Source: a virus. From it: 25,263 nucleotides of DNA. Location: IMG/VR virus record IMGVR_UViG_3300020109_000123, positions 1 through 25,263 of that record; one strand, given 5' to 3'. A program made the position numbers and the translations under genes. Shown here piece after piece: positions 4,331-24,542 of this stretch. A model generated the notes under the pieces. It saw only the letters and a list, made by a program, of their open reading frames with translations. It did not search any database and was not told the origin of the DNA. Every line of letters starts with the position of its first letter. Positions within the stretch are counted from its first letter, which is position 1.

Positions 4331-4492
4331 GTGAAAGTAAAGGCTGGAAAAGGTTTAAGTTTCTGGATTCAATCGCAAAAGGTTGACGAAGAAACTGTTA
4401 TTTCTGTGCAACCGAACCATGATATCCGTTGTAAACTTGCAGACGGATCTCTGATAGAAGTCAAGGAAACTAAAAAGGAGTCTGTAAAATGA
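4331..4492 (+). CDS. 53-aa hypothetical neck protein, GTG start (DUF2635-like position)
   Basis: A GTG at 4331 preceded by GGAGG (4320-4324, 6 nt spacing) opens a 53-aa frame that ends in TGA overlapping the sheath ATG (ATGA, 4489-4492). The protein begins MKVKAGKGLSFWI and continues RCKLADGSLIEVKETKKE, a small basic beta-rich protein. Mu-type phages carry a tiny gene (gp38, DUF2635) at exactly this place, between gp37 and the sheath, whose product also starts with a VKPAPGL-like motif. The homology is suggested by position and the short N-terminal resemblance only. The GTG start and short length make it easy to overlook. Confidence 0.6.
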   Translation: MKVKAGKGLSFWIQSQKVDEETVISVQPNHDIRCKLADGSLIEVKETKKESVK

Positions 4493-5922
4493 CAATCGCT
4501 TTTCAAAACATTCCGTCATCGATACGGAAACCGGGGCGCTATAGCGAATATAACGCATCCCTTGCAAGCCGTGGATTACCCGCAAACGCGCAAAAAGTTT
4601 GCATTATCGGACAGAAAACAAGTGCCGGAACTGGCGTTTCAAACGTCCCGGTTCAGGTTTTTTCCTCCGAAGATGCGAAAGTATACGGCGGTGCCGGTTC
4701 AAACGTTTATTTAGCCGCGAAAGCCGCATTGAAGGCAAATCCGAACCTTCAGTTGTGGATTGTCCCGGTTCCTGACGGTGCGGGCGCTGCAGCGGTTGGC
4801 ACTATTACAATTGCCGGTACCGCATCAACAACCGGTTCAATTGAAATCTGGATAGGAAACGTTCGCGCCGAAGCGACAATTTTCACCGGTGATACTCAAG
4901 CAGAAATTGCAACAGCGATTAAACTCGCGATTGAAGCCGTTCACCTTGAAACACCGGTTATTGCAACGGTAAACGCTGCGGTTGTAACCCTTACCGCTCG
5001 GAACCTTGGGACGCTTGGAAACAATATCGCCGTTTCGTACCGTAATAACAATGTCGGTACTTCGACGGTTACCATTGTTCAGCCGACAAGCGGTGCAACC
5101 GACCCAAGTATTGCAACCGCGCTTACCGCGATTTTCCCGGCCGATTACAACAAAATCATGGTTTGTAACAACGACGCGACGAATCTCGCACTTTTGAAAA
5201 CGCATCTTCAGGATGCAAGCGCACCGACCGAAGGCCGGACCGCAGTAGGGTTTTTCGGTTATACCGGTGTTCAGGCAACACTTGAAACACTTGCAGGGAC
5301 AACTTTGAACTATGAACGGTTGACCGTTGCGTATTTAAAGCAGACCAAAACAACCCAGCGCGGGCACTCGCTTGATTATGAAATCGGCGCTGCTTATTGC
5401 GCGGTTTCCGCCGGTGAATCAGACCCGGCAATGCCTTTGAATACTTTGGCGCTTAAAGGTATTGGTCCGGTTGCTCTTGAAGATCAACTTTCCCGTTCAC
5501 AGCAGGAATCTTGCTTGCTTAACGGTGTTACGCCTCTTGAAGTCGGCCCCGGCGATACGGTTCAGATTGTTCGTGCGGTTACTACATACACGACCAACGC
5601 AGCCGGATCAAAATCAGAAGCGTATCTTGATCTGACAACGATACTTTCGATGGATTACGGAAAAATTGCAATCGAAAGCCGTGAAGCGGAACGTTTTGGA
5701 AGAACAAAGAAAACCGAAAGAACAAAACTCGCTCTTGGTGATGAGGTTTTTGATGTTTGTCGCTTGCTGAAAGAGCTTGAAATCTGGAACCCGGTAACCC
5801 GTGAAGAAATCATTGTTGAGGATGATTTGCAAAATGTGGGCCGTGTCAACGTGTCAATCCCGGCGAAAGTTGTCGCAGGAATGCACATAATCGCAAACCG
5901 TCTCGATCTTATTCTGAGTTAA
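4489..5922 (+). CDS. Contractile tail sheath protein (Mu gpL-like)
   Basis: This 477-aa protein is the tail sheath subunit, which wraps the tube and contracts on infection. It starts MTIAFQNIPSSIRKPGRYSE, the usual N-terminal arm of Mu-like sheaths (an F-x-x-IP-x-x-x-R-x-P-G pattern), has the KVCIIGQK segment with a variable Thr/Ala/Val-rich outer domain around residues 100-200, and ends in a conserved-type C-terminal domain (DVCRLLKELEIW ... NVGRVNVSIPAKVVAGMHIIANRLDLIL). It is followed at once by the tube gene, as in all myoviruses. AAAAAGGAG at 4472-4480 lies 8 nt before the ATG, which overlaps the preceding stop. Confidence 0.88.
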   Translation: MTIAFQNIPSSIRKPGRYSEYNASLASRGLPANAQKVCIIGQKTSAGTGVSNVPVQVFSSEDAKVYGGAGSNVYLAAKAALKANPNLQLWIVPVPDGAGAAAVGTITIAGTASTTGSIEIWIGNVRAEATIFTGDTQAEIATAIKLAIEAVHLETPVIATVNAAVVTLTARNLGTLGNNIAVSYRNNNVGTSTVTIVQPTSGATDPSIATALTAIFPADYNKIMVCNNDATNLALLKTHLQDASAPTEGRTAVGFFGYTGVQATLETLAGTTLNYERLTVAYLKQTKTTQRGHSLDYEIGAAYCAVSAGESDPAMPLNTLALKGIGPVALEDQLSRSQQESCLLNGVTPLEVGPGDTVQIVRAVTTYTTNAAGSKSEAYLDLTTILSMDYGKIAIESREAERFGRTKKTERTKLALGDEVFDVCRLLKELEIWNPVTREEIIVEDDLQNVGRVNVSIPAKVVAGMHIIANRLDLILS

Positions 5923-5935
5923 GGAGGAATAAAAA

Positions 5936-6307
5936 ATGGCTGAATATGTAACAAGATGTTCGATCGAATATAACGGTCAAAACTTCGAAGATTTTTCCGG
6001 GTACAAAGAAAACTCTGTTGCCCTTTCAAAACCGGTTGCTCTGATGAACAAATCTGGTACCGCGAAACTGCAGCCCCGTTACGGGTTCACTGTTGACGCG
6101 AAAATTCCGAAATCTGTTGCCGGGGTGGATCCACGCCGGATTTTTGGAGGTACTTTCACCGTTCAGTATGACAACGGCGACCGCGTAAAATTCGGAGGCG
6201 TTGCAATTACCGAGGTTGGTGATTCACCGATTGACGGCGAGAACGAGGCAACCTACACGCTGTCTTATTCCGCCGAGACACGTTCACCGGATCTGGAGTT
6301 GATCTAA
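5936..6307 (+). CDS. Tail tube protein (Mu gpM-like)
   Basis: This 123-aa protein follows the sheath and has the size and pattern of Mu gpM-type tail tube subunits: an N-terminal strand with YNGQNFEDFSGYKENS, a central SGTAKLQPRYGFTVDAKIP, and a C-terminal FTVQYDNGDRVKFGGVAITEVGDSPIDGENEATYTLSYSAE-like beta sheet that forms the tube wall. AAGGAGG at 5921-5927 gives an excellent RBS 8 nt before the ATG. The stop TAA shares its last base with the next ATG (TAATG). A strong hairpin lies 14 nt past the stop. Confidence 0.85.
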   Translation: MAEYVTRCSIEYNGQNFEDFSGYKENSVALSKPVALMNKSGTAKLQPRYGFTVDAKIPKSVAGVDPRRIFGGTFTVQYDNGDRVKFGGVAITEVGDSPIDGENEATYTLSYSAETRSPDLELI

Positions 6308-6558
6308 TGAACAAAAAGATCGGTGGCACCGTAAAAAGTGCCACCGTTTCCGATTTACAAAAGGAAAACACCGAGCTGCTCGAAGTTCACGCCATGATAA
6401 AAGATGATTTGAACGAACGAGCAAAAGGTTTTCCGGTTCCGTGCATGGCTAATAAAGCGCGTGTCATTGAGGCGCTTAACGGTGCAAAACTGAAATATCC
6501 AGAACTGACGGCATTCTTGACCGAAGTTCAGAATTTTATCGATAGCAGGGTAGCATGA
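6307..6558 (+). CDS. Small helical protein between tail tube and tail chaperone
   Basis: This 83-aa protein starts at the ATG overlapping the tube stop. It is mostly helical and charged (LQKENTELLEVHAMIKDDLNERAK, then MANKARVIEALNGAKLKYPELTAFLTEVQNFIDSRVA). I do not recognise its family. Its place, between the tube and the chaperone genes, suggests a tail assembly role. A 9-bp hairpin (6321-6346) occupies its codons 5-14. Its end overlaps the next gene by 4 nt (ATGA). Confidence 0.6.
   Translation: MNKKIGGTVKSATVSDLQKENTELLEVHAMIKDDLNERAKGFPVPCMANKARVIEALNGAKLKYPELTAFLTEVQNFIDSRVA
6321..6346 (+). other. Stable hairpin just after the tail tube gene
   Basis: CGGTGGCAC (6321-6329) pairs perfectly with GTGCCACCG (6338-6346) around an 8-nt loop (CGTAAAAA). 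Only three T follow on the + strand, so it is at best a weak terminator, but it could attenuate transcription or mark an RNA processing point behind the highly expressed tube gene. On the - strand a run TTTTT follows three bases after the stem. Confidence 0.6.
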
Positions 6559-7043
6559 ATTTACTCGAAAAGCTTCGACAAGGTACTGCGGTATACAAGG
6601 ACGTTGAAATTCCCGGTTCTCCGGGTGATTTCATTCGTGTAAAACTGTTGTCCGAAGATGACGAACTACAGGCGACACTTGCAGCCGATAAAATTTTTGA
6701 TGGTCATAAAGTAGGTTTTGAAAATGTCCGCATGTACGATGCTGAAATCGAAACGCAAATGCTTTATAGATCGCTGAAAGATCCATCAACCGGAAACGGT
6801 ATTTCGAAGAATATTACTGATTTCAGATCGGCATTTACGCCGGAAATGAAAGAGTATTTTATTACTGAGCTTGACAATCTGCGAAAAGAGTTTTCGCCGT
6901 CTCTTGACAAAATGAGTCCTGAAGACTACGATAAACTCATGGAAGATTTAAAAAAAAAGCCAGAGGAGATTGTTGGGAGCGTTTCAAATATCGATTTAGC
7001 GAAAAGGCTAATTCTATCTTTGGTAAAGCTTCTACAGAACTAA
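6555..7043 (+). CDS. Tail assembly chaperone, short (frame 0) form
   Basis: This 162-aa acidic helical protein sits directly before the tape measure gene, where tail assembly chaperones (lambda gpG, Mu gp41) lie. Chaperones of this class bind the tape measure during tail assembly. The core has LLSEDDELQATLAADKIFDG, a helix MYDAEIETQMLYRSLKD, and ITDFRSAFTPEMKEYFITELDNL, a pattern seen in many such proteins. A slippery run at 6947-6959 and an open -1 frame indicate a longer second product. The RBS is weak (CAGGG) and the ATG overlaps the preceding stop (ATGA), so translation is probably coupled. Confidence 0.7.
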   Translation: MNLLEKLRQGTAVYKDVEIPGSPGDFIRVKLLSEDDELQATLAADKIFDGHKVGFENVRMYDAEIETQMLYRSLKDPSTGNGISKNITDFRSAFTPEMKEYFITELDNLRKEFSPSLDKMSPEDYDKLMEDLKKKPEEIVGSVSNIDLAKRLILSLVKLLQN

Positions 7044-7102
7044 CAACCGGGCAATGGTTGTACATTCGTGCAATGGAAACGGTCGAAAACGAGGGTAAAT
7101 AA
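6555..7102 (+). CDS. Tail assembly chaperone, -1 frameshift fusion form
   Basis: The coding path is 6555-6959 in frame 0, then 6959-7102 in the -1 frame, giving 182 aa. The slip site is A AAA AAG at 6953-6959, overlapped by A AAA AAA and T TTA AAA. The -1 frame is closed by TAA at 6932-6934, opens exactly across the slippery run, and then continues for 47 codons to TAA at 7100-7102, whose last A starts the tape measure ATG. The added part (FSEKANSIFGKAS, TGQWLYIRAMETVE) looks like real protein. This reproduces the gpG/gpGT arrangement known for lambda and shown to be conserved in many tailed phages, including Mu (which uses -2). The evidence is strong in sequence, but not experimental. Confidence 0.75.
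6947..6959 (+). promoter_or_regulatory. Programmed -1 ribosomal frameshift site
   Basis: The run TTTAAAAAAAAAG contains three overlapping X XXY YYZ heptamers in the reading frame: T TTA AAA, A AAA AAA and A AAA AAG. The last is the slippery sequence of E. coli dnaX and among the most efficient in bacteria. GGAAG at 6941-6945 could act as an upstream Shine-Dalgarno-like stimulator. I see no strong downstream hairpin. Confidence 0.75.
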
Positions 7103-8865
7103 TGGCAGATATAGACATATCCATTGGCGGCGATAATAAAGAGCTTCTGAAAGAAGTTGCAGAAGCTAAACGGGTATTAAATAAAGAAGCGCGGGAACAG
7201 GAACGAATAGACGCCCGCCTTTCCCGTAAAAAGGCCCGCAACCGCTTAAAGGTAATCCGCGAAACAAGAAAAGCCGAAGAGCAAAGCGCCCGCGAATCTG
7301 AACGGATGGAAGATCGGCTTTTCCGGAAGCGTGCTCGAAATCGTTTAAAAGATATTCGCGCCCGCGTTCGTGAAGAAAAAGCAGCCCATCGTGAAATCGA
7401 AAGAGCTGAAAGGTTATCCGCAGAACGCCGTTCTCGTTTATTCCGTCGCGGTGTTGCCGGTGCCGTTGGTACCGGTTTAGCCGTCGGCGCTGCGGGCGTT
7501 GTAATGGGTCGCGGAATCATTGAATACGAAGAACGCCTTGCGAGAACTGCGGTACAAGCGAAAAAGTCAAGGGAAGAGCAGGCGGCACTTGGAGAATCGA
7601 TAACCGCTGCTTCGATTAAATACGGTGTTTCGCGTGATAATATTTTATCAACATTCGAGGCGATTGTTGATAAATCCGGCGATTTTGATCTTGCCGCCCA
7701 GAATCTCGACAAAATCGGAATGACCCTGCGCGGTACCGGGTCGGACGCTTCCGAACTTGGTATTTTGATAGCAGCGCTTAAGAATTCAATCAACGAATCT
7801 GGAACAAAGCAGACCGGCGGAATATTCGATTTTCTCGATGTTTTGATTGCGCAAGGTGACGAAGCCTCTATTAACCTTTCGGAACTTACAAGCGAAGCGC
7901 AGAAGCTTATGGGAGCGTTTACGCAAGCCGGTTTTGAAAACATGAAACAGTTTACCGAATTCGGCGGATTGTTTCAGATTGCCGGAAAGGGCGCCGGGAA
8001 AGCCGAGGCTGCTACCTATGTCGCTTCGTTCCTTCGTGAAATAGGGAAGCGGTCGAAGGATATCGAAAAAGCCACCGGCGTTAAAACAACAAAAAAAGGC
8101 GGAACCCTTCGCGATCTCGGCGACGTTATACCGGAACTTTTGAAAGCTACCGGCGGGGATATCAACAAAATAAACGCGCTTTTCCCGAACGCAGAGGCCG
8201 CTATTCCTTTGAAACTTCTCGCGGTTGAATACCAGAAGACCGGGGGAGAAATCAAGAGTTTTAACCGTCTTCTTGAACTTGGAGGAATGGCTGCAGAAGT
8301 CAACGCCGAAAGATACAAACGAGTTTCTGAAACATCAGGACAGGCATTCGGAAAGGCCGGGGCGCTCGGCACCATGTTAGCCGATAAAGCACTTGTTCCC
8401 GTGATTGATGATTTATCGGTTAGCCTTGAACGGTTGCTTTCAGATCCGGGGAAATTAAAGCAGCTTGAAAATACTTTCATGGCGATAGGTGAAACATTAA
8501 AGCTGGTTGGTAAATTCGGGGTCGCTTTCGGAAATATCATTTCCCCGATAGTAGGTATTGCCGGGGATATTAGCCGTTCCGGGCAACTTAACGAAAGAAT
8601 CAAAAAGTTACCAGAAACAGCAAAAAAACGGCTAAAGGACGAACTCGGCGTTGGTTTCCTCGAACCAATAGTAAATGCTGGTTCAACCCGGTCAAGTATG
8701 AACGCCGTTGAAAGCGCCCTGAACAATATTGAATTGAGTCTGGTTGTCAATAACACAATGGGAAGAACCGACGCAAAACTTGAAGGACTTTCAAATTCTG
8801 ACACCGGATCGAAAAGGTTTACCAATTACGCCGTCGGTCGTAATCAATGGAGGTTTGGTCAATAA
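7102..8865 (+). CDS. Tail tape measure protein
   Basis: At 587 aa this is the long helical protein that sets tail length; it follows the chaperone, whose frameshift stop overlaps its ATG. The N-terminal 115 residues are extremely charged (Arg/Glu/Lys) and contain a near-repeat, RLSRKKARNRLKVIR (39-53) and RLFRKRARNRLKDIR (72-86). A hydrophobic Gly/Ala stretch (117-138) and a PhageMin_Tail-like central region (FEAIVDKSGDFDLAAQNLDKIG, then LLKATGGDINKINALFPNAEA) follow. At the usual 0.15 nm per residue this predicts a short tail of roughly 90 nm. GAGGG at 7091-7095 is the RBS. The large open frames on the opposite strand are shadows of its codon bias. Confidence 0.85.
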   Translation: MADIDISIGGDNKELLKEVAEAKRVLNKEAREQERIDARLSRKKARNRLKVIRETRKAEEQSARESERMEDRLFRKRARNRLKDIRARVREEKAAHREIERAERLSAERRSRLFRRGVAGAVGTGLAVGAAGVVMGRGIIEYEERLARTAVQAKKSREEQAALGESITAASIKYGVSRDNILSTFEAIVDKSGDFDLAAQNLDKIGMTLRGTGSDASELGILIAALKNSINESGTKQTGGIFDFLDVLIAQGDEASINLSELTSEAQKLMGAFTQAGFENMKQFTEFGGLFQIAGKGAGKAEAATYVASFLREIGKRSKDIEKATGVKTTKKGGTLRDLGDVIPELLKATGGDINKINALFPNAEAAIPLKLLAVEYQKTGGEIKSFNRLLELGGMAAEVNAERYKRVSETSGQAFGKAGALGTMLADKALVPVIDDLSVSLERLLSDPGKLKQLENTFMAIGETLKLVGKFGVAFGNIISPIVGIAGDISRSGQLNERIKKLPETAKKRLKDELGVGFLEPIVNAGSTRSSMNAVESALNNIELSLVVNNTMGRTDAKLEGLSNSDTGSKRFTNYAVGRNQWRFGQ

Positions 8866-19266: not shown

Positions 19267-19439
19267 TTCTTCAAAAGCTCCTTTTCAAATTTTAAAACCT
19301 CATCGAGCGGATATCGAACACCGCCCAATTTAATAAACGCTGGACCCTTTCTTTCGTGCCTCCATTGATTTAATGTGTTTACCGACATTGACCAGCGCAA
19401 AGCCAGCTCTTTCACGGTCAATAATTTGTTGTTTTTCAT
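19263..19439 (-). CDS. 58-aa MerR/AlpA-type helix-turn-helix protein (excisionase-like)
   Basis: The frame reads LLTVKELALRWSMSVNTLNQ (residues 6-25), then WRHERKGPAFIKLGG and VRYPLDEVLKFEKE. This is the winged-helix pattern of the HTH_17/excisionase family: a helix-turn-helix (VKELALRWSMSVNTLNQW), then the GPxFIKLGGxVRY wing and an end helix. Such small proteins bind DNA and act as excisionases or transcription regulators. GGAGA lies 10-11 nt upstream and the ATG overlaps the preceding stop. No integrase is in the window, so excision is one possibility and early regulation another. Confidence 0.8.
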   Translation of the reverse strand: MKNNKLLTVKELALRWSMSVNTLNQWRHERKGPAFIKLGGVRYPLDEVLKFEKELLKK

Positions 19440-19846
19440 TTTTTTAAATCTCCGTTTTTCCTTAAAGTTCCGGCGGCCTTGTCTAAATTATCGCCAAAGA
19501 TCAAAGCAAAGCATATCATAAAAGCAAAATAGTTTTTTGATACTATTGTTAGTACGAGTGCAATCAAAAGCATTAAAGCAGATAGCGAGAATAGTAACGT
19601 GCTCTTTTTGATTTTTGGTTTGTTTTTTGCCTTGATTTCAATTGGTACTATTTCAGTATCAAGAAAGAAAAAGATAGATTCTGATTCGCATAATGTTGTA
19701 TCAGCATATTTTTTCAATTCTTTAACTGGAACGTCAACTCCGATCGGTGTTTTTTCGCAAACACTTCCTTCGACCGTTATTGGAAAATTAACGCCTTTAA
19801 GAAAATTAAAATGCCCGTCATTAAGCAATTTGTATTTCTTCAACAT
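19436..19846 (-). CDS. Two-helix membrane protein of unknown function
   Basis: This 136-aa protein has a soluble N-terminal part (residues 1-80: LLNDGHFNFLKGVNFPITVEG, VPVKELKKYADTT, SIFFFLDTEIVPIEIKAK), then two hydrophobic helices (83-102, LLFSLSALMLLIALVLTIV; 105-118, YFAFMICFALIFG) and a basic end. The frame is open far upstream to 20158, which would give 240 aa, but I chose the ATG at 19846: it follows the stop of the preceding gene by 1 nt, has AAAGGA 11 nt upstream, and the upstream residues look like out-of-frame sequence. The DNA here is AT-rich (20 G+C in the 60 bases from 19561). A cargo gene is plausible. No family recognised. Confidence 0.6.
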   Translation of the reverse strand: MLKKYKLLNDGHFNFLKGVNFPITVEGSVCEKTPIGVDVPVKELKKYADTTLCESESIFFFLDTEIVPIEIKAKNKPKIKKSTLLFSLSALMLLIALVLTIVSKNYFAFMICFALIFGDNLDKAAGTLRKNGDLKK

Positions 19847-19847
19847 T

Positions 19848-20152
19848 TTACGACTTATCCTTTCTGGCAATTTCACATGCCTTTGATAAAAAAGCCTCTG
19901 CTTGATCAAATGACCAGTTTTCATGTTCAAGGATTTCTTTACACAAATCAAGAGCCTCTTGTTTTGTGTCGTTGTTTGGATTCTCTTCTGTAAGCAATTC
20001 CACAAGTCAGAATAACCCATGTCATCTATTAAAACAAAATACGCGTTTATTTTTATAACACAAATGACCTCTTTCTCTATCCAGCTATTGCCGTACATCT
20101 TTTTTACCCAAACGGTAAATTTTTTACCGCCTTGATATATCATATCTCCCAT
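19848..20152 (-). pseudogene. Small early gene apparently split by a -1 frameshift
   Basis: The ATG at 20152 has AAAGAGG just upstream and lies 2 nt after the ATPase stop. It opens a protein GDMIYQGGKKFTVWVKKMYG, continuing IEKEVICVIKINAYFVLIDDMGYSDLWNCL, a credible beta-rich domain. From about 19991 the -1 frame gives TEENPNNDTKQEALDLCKEI, then HENWSFDQAEAFLSKACEIA, ending at TAA 19850-19848, 1 nt before the next ATG. The other frame becomes Lys/Arg/Gln-rich with no protein-like pattern. A single missing base near 19991 would restore one gene of about 101 aa. No slippery heptamer is visible there, so a mutation, an assembly error or an unusual recoding event are all possible. As read, the upstream frame runs on into the membrane protein gene. 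Confidence 0.5.
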
Positions 20153-20154
20153 AA

Positions 20155-21825
20155 TCAAACCTCTTTCGCAACAGAGTTTTCAACCCAGTAACAACGCCCG
20201 CCCATGTTTTTAAGCTTGCCGGAAAGCTCCGCAACCTTTTCCTTTGATTGCATAGCTGCAACCGCGATACAAGGTATCTTTGTATTCAAGATTGCCTTTA
20301 ACATTTGCGAGCGAACCGATTCAAGAAGTTCATCAAGATCATCGATGACCATAAACTTTGATGATTCCGCACATGCGACCATGATCTGCAACAAAATTCG
20401 CGCCCGGTACCGTTCCGATTTTGCAATCATTCTACCGTATGGAACACCGCCGAAAATAATTTCGCAGTTTTCGTTCAATTCTAGTTTTTTCCATCCGGCA
20501 CCGTCGCAGATTACCGCTAACGAACGATTGATTTTTGCATACGCTTCGGTCAATTTCTTGTTTCTGATTCCTTTCGGTTCCAAGATTTCAACCAACTTTT
20601 CGTTCGTTTCGATATTCCGGTGCGCTTTCAATGCCTTTTTGTAAATCTGGTAAGCACTCAAACGCGATTCTGCAAGTTCAAGTTTCTGTAGAACTTCGGT
20701 AACAGAATGTTCCGGCTGCTCCGGTGCCGATCGAAGTTCCGCAAGCTTGTTTCTCGCTTCGATAGCTTCGGAAAGTTTCTGTTTTTGCGCTCCATACGCT
20801 TCAACGTGGCTCTGCTTTGTTGCAATCCAACCGTTTCCGCGATTTTTAAGGTCGGTAACGTCTTCGGCCTGCTTTGGAACGCGGTCTGTTTTAACCAGCA
20901 CCGAGTTTTCAAAATCAAGCTTCTGTTTGCATGCCGGGCACTCAAGAACCGGTTTATCAGCCTTGGTTTTTTCGTCGATCTCGGTTTTAATCTTCGCGAT
21001 TTCGTCGTTGCATTCGCGTATTGCTTGTTCAAGAGAAACCATTTTTTTCTCGATATCCGGCATAGCGTCAACCTGAATTTGCAGGGTGTCTTGCTCATAT
21101 TCAGAAATCGATTGTTCTTTTAAGGCTGCGTCTCTCCATTCTTTGCAATCCTTGACAATCTGAACAAGTTTTTCTTCGCCGATTCCTTCAAGTTCCGCCG
21201 ACCAGTCTTCCGGGATCCAAGATTCAGCAATACGTTTTCCGTATTTTTTCTCGCCGGTCGTGTCTTCCCAAACGCCTTTTAATTTGGTTCCTTTTTCGCG
21301 TGCCTGTTTAGCGGCGTTATCCCAGCCGTTTATCTCGATCGTTTCCCAAAGTTTAACGCAAAGCTCCGTTTCCGTAGGTTTTGCCGTGCCTTCCGGTATG
21401 AGACCTACCTTGACAAGCTCCGAAGCGAGATCTTCGATTGTAGGGGTTGCTTTCATCATTGTAACGATATAATTGATGCGGTCAGGAATTTTCATATCAC
21501 ACAACGAATCGATTCCGGCTGCAATATCGGAAATTAAAACCGGTTGTTTCACCGATGAGTATTCCATTGACGGGAAAGACACCTTTGAAACCGTTTCACC
21601 GTCAACATATTCAACCGACCCAGAAGGCGTCCCGGAATGAACCAGCATTGAGGACTCTTTTTTCGTTACATCCTTGAAAGGGTTAGGTTGTCCGGTTGCT
21701 GCGCACATAATCGCCTCGATAGTGCTTGATTTACCGGAACCATTCAACCCGGTAACAAGCGCGAGTTTATCAAGTTCGATATCGGCGGTGCCGATCCCTC
21801 TATAGTTTCTTACTTTGAAAATCAT
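20155..21825 (-). CDS. Rad50/SMC-like AAA ATPase
   Basis: This 556-aa protein has the split-ATPase layout of Rad50/SbcC/T4 gp46. Walker A is GLNGSGKSS at residues 26-34, with the KVRNYRGIGTADIEL start typical of this class. Coiled coils occupy residues about 225-290 and 335-410. CPAC (296-299) at the turn is a zinc-hook-like motif that would dimerise two molecules. A signature-like AKSERYRA lies at 468-475 and Walker B FMVIDDLDE at 491-499. It is shorter than SbcC (about 1000 aa), close to T4 gp46 in size. The start overlaps the preceding stop (ATGA), with AGGAGGAC upstream. Likely role: DNA end processing or recombination with the nuclease in the same operon; no Mre11/SbcD-type partner is seen. 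Confidence 0.85.
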   Translation of the reverse strand: MIFKVRNYRGIGTADIELDKLALVTGLNGSGKSSTIEAIMCAATGQPNPFKDVTKKESSMLVHSGTPSGSVEYVDGETVSKVSFPSMEYSSVKQPVLISDIAAGIDSLCDMKIPDRINYIVTMMKATPTIEDLASELVKVGLIPEGTAKPTETELCVKLWETIEINGWDNAAKQAREKGTKLKGVWEDTTGEKKYGKRIAESWIPEDWSAELEGIGEEKLVQIVKDCKEWRDAALKEQSISEYEQDTLQIQVDAMPDIEKKMVSLEQAIRECNDEIAKIKTEIDEKTKADKPVLECPACKQKLDFENSVLVKTDRVPKQAEDVTDLKNRGNGWIATKQSHVEAYGAQKQKLSEAIEARNKLAELRSAPEQPEHSVTEVLQKLELAESRLSAYQIYKKALKAHRNIETNEKLVEILEPKGIRNKKLTEAYAKINRSLAVICDGAGWKKLELNENCEIIFGGVPYGRMIAKSERYRARILLQIMVACAESSKFMVIDDLDELLESVRSQMLKAILNTKIPCIAVAAMQSKEKVAELSGKLKNMGGRCYWVENSVAKEV

Positions 21826-22172
21826 TGAAAAATGTCCTCCTGTTTCGGTTCAGGTTTAGATTCAAGCGCCTTTGTAATTCTTGGGTCTGCAATCACCGGG
21901 TTTTTCGGTCCGGTTTTCTTGATATCTTCGGCGGTCTTCGGCGGTTGCTTTGGTTCCGGTACCGGGGCCGGTTCCGGCGTTGATACGAAAACCGGCTGCG
22001 GATTCGTTTTAACACTTGAAAGGTATTCTGTAACATAGCTTTCAATATCCGCAAGCATTTTATCAAGCTTCGGTTTTAATTCCGGTTTATGGCTCTCAGG
22101 TAGCCTGTTATAAGATTCAAGCGTGCGATTAAACTTCACGCCGGTAACGATGATTTTTTCGAGTAGTTTCAT
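21822..22172 (-). CDS. Proline-rich early protein with acidic-aromatic C-terminal tip
   Basis: This 116-aa protein has a helical N-terminal half (residues 1-52: MKLLEKIIVTGVKFNRTLES, then KPKLDKMLADIESYVTEYLS) and a disordered Pro/Glu/Lys-rich second half (EPAPVPEPKQPPKTAEDI), ending KQEDIFQ. No family is recognised. It lies between the gp3-like gene and the ATPase, overlapping the latter by 4 nt, so it may be an adaptor of this module. AGGAGA sets the start. Confidence 0.6.
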   Translation of the reverse strand: MKLLEKIIVTGVKFNRTLESYNRLPESHKPELKPKLDKMLADIESYVTEYLSSVKTNPQPVFVSTPEPAPVPEPKQPPKTAEDIKKTGPKNPVIADPRITKALESKPEPKQEDIFQ

Positions 22173-22187
22173 TTTGGTTTTCTCCTG

Positions 22188-23312
22188 TTAAAAAAGATCT
22201 TCGGGAATATCCCCGAAAACGGTTGTTTGTACTGGTTCTTTTGCTGCGATCGGCTCCGATGCGGGTTCCGGTTTCGTTACTGGTACCGGTGCTGATACTT
22301 CGGCGGTTACTTCCACGGCAACCGGTTCTGGTTTTTTCGTTGGTTTCTTTGTTGGTTCAGGTTTTGGTTCCGGTACCGGATCAACTGGAACAACTTCGGC
22401 TTCAAGAACGATTTCTTTCGCACCTTCCGGCGGTAATACTTCGGGTTGTCCGTGTTCTTCCGGGTAATATTCATCAACAATGTCTGCAGCTTCGTCAATA
22501 TATGCGCTGTCAACAGAAAGTAAAAGTTTTGCCTCCTCTTCAATATGCGCTAATCTTTGGCGATAAGTCGCGTCTCCGAGTGATATTTTCATTCCAGCAT
22601 CGCGCAATTGTTGAACGTTTCCGGCAAATTCAACGCCAACAACATAAACGGTAACCGCTGAATTATCAACCGGGTTTGTTGCGACCTTCGGAACGATTGT
22701 CAAATTCAAAGGTATTCCTGCAAGCGCCCCGCCTGTTATCGTTTTTATCAATGATAGCGAGGACAAAATTCCGACCGTTGAATTATAACCTGTTGTCCTG
22801 AATTTCCATACTCCGCCGACGGTTGAAGCTTTGCAAGCGATCATAACCGAAAGAGTTCCGTTAATTTTGCACTTTCCTTTTCCTTTGCCGTCATCCCCGG
22901 TAAATGTCGGGTCGTTTCTATGGCATGGGCACGGTACTTCATGGCGCTCCGGTGAGTCTTTCGCCTTCAATCTGTCAGCGCATTCGCCGTCACCAGAACA
23001 ATACAAAGTTTTACCGAAATAGCAAGTATAACGACACTGGAAATTTAGGGAAATATCATCGTACAATAAAGTTATCGGAATAACTTTCGGAGCTTCGCCC
23101 AGTTCTTCGTGTATTTCCTTGTTGATAACAAAATTGTTATCCTTTCCGCGTTCAAGCGTTGTAATAAGGAAATGGTCGAGCTTTTGCGGCAACTGGTAGA
23201 CACCGTTTGAACCGTTTCTTTCGGCTCCCTTTTTACCGATTTTGATTTTGCCCCTCTCCGATAAACCCGGCATTAGGTTTTTGATTATCGGTGATTTTCT
23301 TCTTTCAGGCAT
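22188..23312 (-). CDS. gp3-like (recombination directionality factor-like) cysteine-rich protein
   Basis: Residues 18-235 of this 374-aa protein fit the gp3-like family, often annotated as recombination directionality factor or as hydrolase/metal-binding protein: SERGKIKIGKKG, LPQKLDHFLITT, a cysteine cluster (C93, C97, C105, C111, C128, C130, C148, C160), then GTLSVMIACKASTVGGVWKF and TTGYN, and TGGALAGIPLNLTIVPK. The cysteines probably bind zinc. Residues about 285-374 are a Pro/Glu/Lys/Val-rich disordered tail ending FGDIPEDLF, like the acidic tips of single-strand binding proteins. Its place between nuclease and ATPase fits DNA metabolism better than site-specific excision; function is open. 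It starts 8 nt before the end of the nuclease gene with GGAGAGG upstream. Confidence 0.65.
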   Translation of the reverse strand: MPERRKSPIIKNLMPGLSERGKIKIGKKGAERNGSNGVYQLPQKLDHFLITTLERGKDNNFVINKEIHEELGEAPKVIPITLLYDDISLNFQCRYTCYFGKTLYCSGDGECADRLKAKDSPERHEVPCPCHRNDPTFTGDDGKGKGKCKINGTLSVMIACKASTVGGVWKFRTTGYNSTVGILSSLSLIKTITGGALAGIPLNLTIVPKVATNPVDNSAVTVYVVGVEFAGNVQQLRDAGMKISLGDATYRQRLAHIEEEAKLLLSVDSAYIDEAADIVDEYYPEEHGQPEVLPPEGAKEIVLEAEVVPVDPVPEPKPEPTKKPTKKPEPVAVEVTAEVSAPVPVTKPEPASEPIAAKEPVQTTVFGDIPEDLF

Positions 23313-24147
23313 TATTCACCTCTCCTTTTTTGTAATATTTACAGAAATCCGTACCAAACGCGGCACAGTATTTTTCACTGCATAAACTGCAATTTGGATT
23401 AGCGACGAATACCGCCGGGTTTCCGCATTGCTGAAAACTCTTTATATCTCGAATTAGCTGATTCGTTAAATACCACGCTTCGTTCATCGAAAAATCGACT
23501 TCATAACCGGCGTTTTTAGTTCCGGGGTAAGGTTTATCGACCATCACACGCGGCAAATAGTTAGTTATCAAAAATTTCGGCTTCCAATTCCTTGTCGATA
23601 CTAACAGATTTGCATACATACCCAACTGCGCGTGGTACGGTCGAACCGTTTTACCGGATTTAGTATCGAGAACCGAAGTTTCAGAAATAACGTCAACATG
23701 GCCGGTAATTTCAAAACCTTGAATCTCGGCGCGCAGTGCAACCTCTAAATGGTCGTCTGGGTTGCATCCTTCAGGAAACTTGATCTTCGGGGCAACATCC
23801 CTATAATATGCAGCCGTCAGCGTCTTAATCTGTCGCTCTGCGTGGTTCTGGTTTACCGTCGTATCATCGAAAATAACGCCTTCGGTTTTCTGTAGATTCT
23901 CCGAAAAATCACTCATTGCCGAATCGATCGCCTCAGAATACGATGGAAGCGCGCCGGATATGATTTTTTTACGCAAAATGGTTTCGTTGCCCTTATGTAC
24001 CGCCGTACCTATTAGGCTATAAATACCCGTTCTACGTTCGTTTAAATCAAACCCGGCTTCCGTGATGATTTCACGCTGAGAATTAGCGACCGCCATTCTG
24101 CAACAGTCTGAAACCGACGGAAGCGAAGAACATCGAATATTGATCAT
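23305..24147 (-). CDS. Cas4/RecB-like PD-(D/E)XK nuclease
   Basis: This 280-aa protein carries the full set of RecB-family nuclease motifs: GTAVHKGNE (His51), ITGHVDVIS (Asp152), LDTKSGK (Asp161 and Lys163) and QLGMYANLL (Q174xxxY178). Cysteines near the end (C253, C256, C261, C269; CSLCSEKYC then FGTDFC) look like an Fe-S ligand set as in Cas4 and AddB, perhaps with C15/C16 at the N-terminus. Such enzymes degrade DNA ends, usually exonucleolytically. No Cas1/Cas2 or repeat array is present, so a CRISPR role is not suggested. The ATG overlaps the preceding stop (TAATG). Together with the Rad50-like ATPase it could form a phage end-resection system. Confidence 0.85.
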   Translation of the reverse strand: MINIRCSSLPSVSDCCRMAVANSQREIITEAGFDLNERRTGIYSLIGTAVHKGNETILRKKIISGALPSYSEAIDSAMSDFSENLQKTEGVIFDDTTVNQNHAERQIKTLTAAYYRDVAPKIKFPEGCNPDDHLEVALRAEIQGFEITGHVDVISETSVLDTKSGKTVRPYHAQLGMYANLLVSTRNWKPKFLITNYLPRVMVDKPYPGTKNAGYEVDFSMNEAWYLTNQLIRDIKSFQQCGNPAVFVANPNCSLCSEKYCAAFGTDFCKYYKKGEVNNA

Positions 24148-24431
24148 TATATAGCCATCCTGTGCAGGTGCGTCGAACCGGCCCTATCATTGCAATAATA
24201 TTCAAGGAAACGCCCGTCGATTCTGAACCCGTCCGGGCAATCCGGGCGCTTTAAAGGTTCCATTCCATCCCCGGAAGCTGCTATTAAAAGCATCTTCGCA
24301 ATCTTTAACCCAGACGGGCACCTTGAATCATTGCATGCACCGAAAGGCGCTATTTTCCCACACTCAGGACAGCGAACGAATACTTTGTTGCCAGCCTCGA
24401 CCCATGCACCGCGTTTTTGAATTACACCCAT
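24147..24431 (-). CDS. Small zinc-ribbon protein, first gene of the leftward operon
   Basis: This 94-aa protein has CPECG (C21, C24) and CNDSRCPSG (C33, C38), a compact zinc-ribbon, followed by a helix and DCPDGFRIDGRFLEYYCND. Function unknown; zinc-ribbons in phage early operons often bind nucleic acid or RNA polymerase. The open frame reaches 24518, but its first 29 residues would be a very hydrophobic stretch read from the AT-rich promoter region. The ATG at 24431 has AAAGGAGG 5 nt upstream and is clearly the start. Confidence 0.7.
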   Translation of the reverse strand: MGVIQKRGAWVEAGNKVFVRCPECGKIAPFGACNDSRCPSGLKIAKMLLIAASGDGMEPLKRPDCPDGFRIDGRFLEYYCNDRAGSTHLHRMAI

Positions 24432-24480
24432 GAAAACCTCCTTTGTTATGAATAATATAATCGATTTCAAAATAAAAGTG

Positions 24481-24510
24481 CATAAAAAAATATAAAAAAA
24501 TATAAAAAAA
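24481..24510. repeat. Three phased A-tracts (bent DNA) in the divergent control region
   Basis: Three consecutive decamers, CATAAAAAAA, TATAAAAAAA and TATAAAAAAA, place seven-A tracts exactly 10 bp apart. A-tracts phased near the helical repeat bend DNA. They lie upstream of both divergent transcription units, about 40-70 bp before the predicted rightward start, where curved or UP-element-like DNA stimulates RNA polymerase. Confidence 0.75.
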
Positions 24511-24511
24511 A

Positions 24512-24542
24512 TTAACACTTTAATTCAGAAAATGTGTATATT
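24512..24542 (+). promoter_or_regulatory. Candidate rightward early promoter
   Basis: TTAACA (24512-24517) and TATATT (24537-24542) each differ from the sigma70 consensus at one position; the 19-bp spacer is slightly long. Transcription would begin near 24549, at the inverted repeat, about 60 nt before the first gene. The region 24432-24511 also serves the leftward operon; a TATATT lies at 24454-24459 on the - strand, but no good -35 was found for it. Confidence 0.5.

Follow-up and report, generated by a model that had tools for sequence, protein, structure and literature searches.

Organization of the tail chaperone locus

The window, as the whole stretch of 25,263 nucleotides is called here, is an IMG/VR virus record with Mu-type sheath, tube, tape measure and baseplate genes, and it encodes a baseplate protein like Gp48. 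A G-type chaperone gene is positioned between the tail tube and tape measure genes (Table 1), and the same order is seen in relatives. Directly before the chaperone gene is an 83-aa ORF (6307-6558) with zero matches in Pfam or PHROG. Counterparts of this ORF, sharing a MANKARV/FANKARV motif, occur in two related loci, L004 and L006. Elsewhere, positions 19436-24518 hold a block of genes on the opposite (-) strand, which encodes an AAA/SbcC-like ATPase (20155-21825), a Gp3-like recombination directionality factor domain (22188-23312) and a PD-(D/E)XK nuclease (23305-24147).

Table 1. Features of the tail chaperone region, with positions in the window
Feature	Positions	Strand	Basis
Mu-type tail sheath gene	4489..5922	+	phrog_165, E 9.6e-125
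Tail tube protein gene	5936..6307	+	phrog_185, E 1.5e-4
G-type chaperone gene, 0 frame, 162 aa	6555..7043	+	ORF in the window sequence
TAA shutting the -1 frame 5′ of the slip site	6932..6934	+	window sequence
Slip region, T TTA AAA AAA AAG	6947..6959	+	window sequence
-1 extension (T part, 48 codons + TAA), KARGDCWERFKYRFSEKANSIFGKASTELTTGQWLYIRAMETVENEGK	6956..7102	+	open frame, relatives, substitution pattern
Tape measure protein gene	7102..8865	+	phrog_794, E 1.1e-19

The chaperone has no PHROG match, no Pfam match above threshold and zero matches among 50,697 phage records. Its first 134 residues, which are also the first 134 of the 182-aa fusion described below, gave an AF2 model with a mean pLDDT of 80. 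The top PDB match of this modeled G part is the HK97 tail assembly chaperone 2ob9 (probability 0.99), and the matches to viral structures include several annotated tail chaperones. Gene order supports assignment of the protein as a tail assembly chaperone, and the predicted fold points the same way. The 2ob9 match itself, at E 0.038 and 14% identity, is suggestive and falls short of proving common descent.

The slip site and the -1 frame

Around the slip site, the 0 frame reads ...GAA GAT TTA AAA AAA AAG CCA GAG..., with GAT through AAG at 6945-6959. The A9 run spans 6950-6958 and is followed by G6959. Three overlapping heptamers lie in phase: T TTA AAA (6947-6953), A AAA AAA (6950-6956) and A AAA AAG (6953-6959). 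The original prediction had named A AAA AAG and two overlapping heptamers at this place, and its positions proved accurate to the base. It had also described a -1 frame that is shut upstream by a TAA, open across the slip site and terminated by a stop overlapping the tape measure ATG. Those coordinates were confirmed as well, the open -1 frame covering 6935-7099 and the stop TAA (7100-7102) sharing one base with the ATG. The predicted fusion (...DLKKKARGDCWER...) has 134 + 48 residues, giving the second product of 182 aa that had been proposed, and the peptide ASTELTTGQWLYIR lies in its T part. All three ribosomal slip registers yield this same 182-aa protein, as does insertion of one A by RNA polymerase.

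Overlapping short genes occur often in phages, and the -1 frame might be a small gene in its own right, expressed from its own start codon or through reinitiation. However, its only start codons are a TTG and then an ATG, both close to the end of the frame and 3′ of most of the motif conserved among relatives, so separate initiation cannot make most of the conserved -1 part. In the window's chaperone family, moreover, the open -1 frame begins just 5′ of the slip site. Late starts and a frame that opens at the slip site come close to excluding separate initiation, and we regard it as very improbable.

Taken alone, the site is only weakly improbable. Further in-phase A AAA AAN heptamers occur within other genes of the window (for example at 8091, 8622 and 11639), so the heptamer by itself proves little. 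In 5000 synonymous-codon shuffles of the gene, 2.4% retained an in-phase heptamer from which the -1 frame stayed open beyond the 0-frame stop. These figures leave room for chance, with a heptamer that only looks slippery happening to sit next to an open frame. Against this stands the conservation, in divergent phages, of both the -1 protein and the site.

Frame relation of the two halves across relatives

A search with the chaperone sequence retrieved nothing beyond the window's virus and two more sister types, and the tail sheath was therefore used as the anchor. Viral contigs and bacterial genomes were scanned and phage records added, giving 166 sheath-anchored loci, the window included, which were classified with profile HMMs for each half, drawn from two chaperone families. 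Both halves were recognized in 146 of the 166 loci (non-deduplicated) by HMMs trained on loci of this same set, and the counts accordingly test the frame relation and not homology: the relation is -1 in 100 loci and +1 in 45, and in 1 the halves share a phase but form separate ORFs. Thus the halves are out of frame in 145/146 loci, and a single fused ORF was found in none (0/146). Automatic site picks at L031, L032, L063, L084, L088, L110, L164 and L169 were wrong or doubtful and were excluded from the site counts.

Judged from these comparisons, conservation across relatives settles the doubt over a chance origin of the window's site. A fortuitous heptamer and open frame is excluded on this evidence, and we give it next to no weight.

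Some loci, prophages mostly from Chromobacterium, had no chaperone halves recognizable by HMM. At L141, L143, L145, L150, L151, L155, L157, L158, L171, L174 and L175 the tape measure gene comes soon after the tube gene, and these HMMs recognized no halves between the two.

The window's chaperone family

Within the window's own chaperone family, the -1 relation holds in 25/25 loci (HMM). Homologues with a lost or stop-ridden -1 extension would speak against a fusion; the opposite was found, the extension being open and conserved in all examined members. The conserved -1 motif is FERFKYRxAEKAxxxFG..LTxGQWLY, members having variants of KYRxAEKAxxxFGxPAxxLTxGQWLYxLxM in the extension, and the +1 frame is interrupted by stops. 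Between the window and its relative L021, substitutions at -1 codon positions 1/2/3 number 14/8/23, and 5/2/9 in the part beyond the 0-frame stop. Since substitutions pile up at third positions, the -1 frame appears to be translated, and this pattern shows that the -1 half is under selection at the protein level. The claim of a G/GT-type chaperone pair is supported by the -1 relation throughout these loci, the conserved extension and the gene order, with the fold match as a suggestive addition.

The junction reads TA AAA AAA A in 18/18 tabulated members, and also at four extra loci found by HMM (L097, L109, L110 and L156). Run length is A8 in 7 tabulated members and A9 in 11. In every one of them the run begins at codon position 3, and the next base is C, G or T. 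Other A8+ runs in the same loci number only 3 in a total of 67,314 bases. Comparison of the junctions shows that the halves are always encoded out of frame and that the junction sequence is fixed. A AAA AAG is found in 3/18 tabulated members plus L110, its only carriers being the window, L021, L073 and L110. The original prediction, which named A AAA AAG, is to be corrected on this point: the heptamer is present in the window, but the constant element of the family is the A8-A9 run with A AAA AAA.

Runs of nine A are prone to sequencing errors, which raises the question of whether a homopolymer assembly error causes the frame break. A second virus contig, however, has the same A9 run (L002/L003; 10,413/10,419 compared bases identical). 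The recurrence of the same frame relation in all family loci, an A8-A9 run throughout the family and a 0-frame tail of at least 26 codons in 18/18 tabulated members also argue against an error. Unless most relatives share the same one, the comparison excludes this explanation, and its probability is negligible.

The conserved run could instead act during transcription. The fusion would then be made mainly by transcriptional slippage, with the polymerase adding one A and the resulting A10 message being read in a single frame. A runs longer than 7 serve transcriptional realignment, and frameshifting in reporters rose from 10% with A7 to 40% with A9 (PMC3711429). Genes that use transcriptional slippage are recognized by a conserved run of about 8-9 or more A or T, which the window's family has, and the free base after the run in all 18 tabulated members fits such a mechanism. 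However, A AAA AAA is equally valid as a ribosomal site, and the run keeps one codon phase, needlessly for a slipping polymerase, though the encoded residues could explain the phase. Sister chaperones, moreover, have A6 or G GGA AAG at this position, and neither sequence is expected to make the polymerase slip. On balance, we consider transcriptional slippage as the main route unlikely, though a serious alternative. A peptide over residue 135 cannot separate it from ribosomal slippage because the protein is identical, and trypsin would cut the KKKAR junction of the fusion to pieces.

-1 members of the sister family

The same tail-operon position is occupied in other Mu-like phages by a sister family, phrog_508, annotated 'tail assembly chaperone' (SuMu, Mannheimia 3927AP2 and Klebsiella ST405-OXA48phi1.1), in which a -1 relation is likewise found. 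Homology between the window's family and phrog_508 was undetected by hhalign (G half, 3.6%; T half, 23%). The -1 members of phrog_508 have A runs of 6, 7 or 8 that begin at codon positions 3, 2 and 1, respectively, and 52/53 keep the in-phase A AAA AAG ending. At the same junction, G GGA AAG replaces the A run at L115:6121, L144:6097, L147:6079 and L148:6102. Because the heptamer is constant while the length of the A run varies, and because four members have G GGA AAG, the pattern points to tandem ribosomal slippage in phrog_508. The constant unit there is A AAA AAG within a run of 6-8 A, whereas in the window's family the run is longer and the base after it varies freely.

TTT CGA junctions in +1 members

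About a third of the related phages have a conserved TTT CGA in place of the A heptamer, and their second half lies in the +1 frame. An in-frame TTT CGN is found at codon 97-104 of the sister-family chaperone gene where the A heptamer is missing. At 34 non-redundant loci the second codon is CGA in 28, CGC in 5 and CGT in 1, compared with 85 CGA among the 1622 Arg codons of the sheath and tape-measure genes of those loci; because the loci were searched for TTT CG, the CGA bias and the fixed position alone are not products of that search. Examples of TTT CGA among related Mu-like phages are L047:6110, L025:6085, L033:6086, L054:6110 and L099:6078, with some 35 further loci. Exceptions to TTT CGN are TTT CAA (L026, L032) and TTT CCC (L084). 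The chaperone gene of Vibrio phage martha 12B12 (L014:5854-6330) carries GGGGGCGA towards its end, apparently similar to the -2 site of Mu.

Members with the +1 relation and those with the -1 relation are homologous in both halves, G (hhalign 99.9%, 8e-32) and T (98.8%, 1e-16). TTT CGA looks like a candidate +1 frameshift site, at which the P-site tRNA-Phe would move from UUU to UUC beside a slow CGA codon. The motif resembles the UCC_UUU_CGU of influenza PA-X (PMC3498833). Frameshifts of tail genes in either direction are already known (PMC5009743, PMC10885494), and we found no report of the TTT CGA motif in tail genes among the open-access papers searched.

A two-product model for the window's chaperone

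It is very likely that one message gives two products and that a fusion of both halves is made. The locus probably encodes a lambda-type G/GT chaperone of a Mu-like myophage, with a -1 shift that is mainly ribosomal and takes place on the A9 run. Most decoding would stop at 7043 and yield a G-type protein of 162 aa. In a minority of cases, tandem tRNA-Lys slippage at A AAA AAA / A AAA AAG would move decoding into the -1 frame and on to 7102, yielding the GT-type fusion of 182 aa. The occurrence of the shift, its mainly ribosomal nature, its rate and the roles in assembly given below are inferred.

The free base after the A8-A9 run and the rarity of A AAA AAG count against ribosomal slippage, making its signature weaker in the window's family than in phrog_508. 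A downstream stem-loop and an upstream Shine-Dalgarno sequence were considered as stimulators and found no support. RNAalifold found no conserved downstream RNA structure in 18 sequences (-0.14 kcal/mol for stem-loop folds), and the upstream Shine-Dalgarno showed only a weak excess that was not significant. The tail chaperone frameshift of Mu occurs at about 2.2% (PMC3498833), and since Mu shifts at so low a rate, a weak site may suffice in the window.

Lambda G/GT (Xu, Hendrix and Duda 2004), in the account given in PMC5009743, consists of a short product and a -1 C-terminal extension. In both lambda and the window, a short product with a -1 extension is encoded between tube and tape measure, and the likeness is one of arrangement. 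The window differs in that its site is an A9 run and its 0 frame continues for 27-28 codons past the slip. The Mu chaperone shares the tail operon type and the product pair; Mu, however, shifts -2 at a G-rich site, whereas the shift predicted for the window is -1. By analogy with lambda, G would coat the tape measure protein, with recruitment of the tail tube protein by the T part, so that GT would bridge the tape measure protein to tube subunits. Neither G nor GT would be expected to stay in the virion.

Implications

The window's chaperone belongs to a known kind of system, the frameshifted tail chaperones, and represents a new family that neither Pfam nor PHROG includes. Known frameshifted tail chaperones thereby gain a family absent from both databases, and the locus shows a second chaperone half that gene callers overlook, in agreement with the original prediction. 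Phages with one tail operon type retain the two-product design while the slip site and the direction of the shift (-1 or +1) change. If transcriptional slippage were the main route in the window's family, its G:GT ratio would be set at transcription, and the sister lineage would reach the same architecture by a ribosomal shift, either -1 (A AAA AAG, G GGA AAG) or +1 (TTT CGA). These phages are well suited to studying what determines the mechanism and the ratio of frameshifting.
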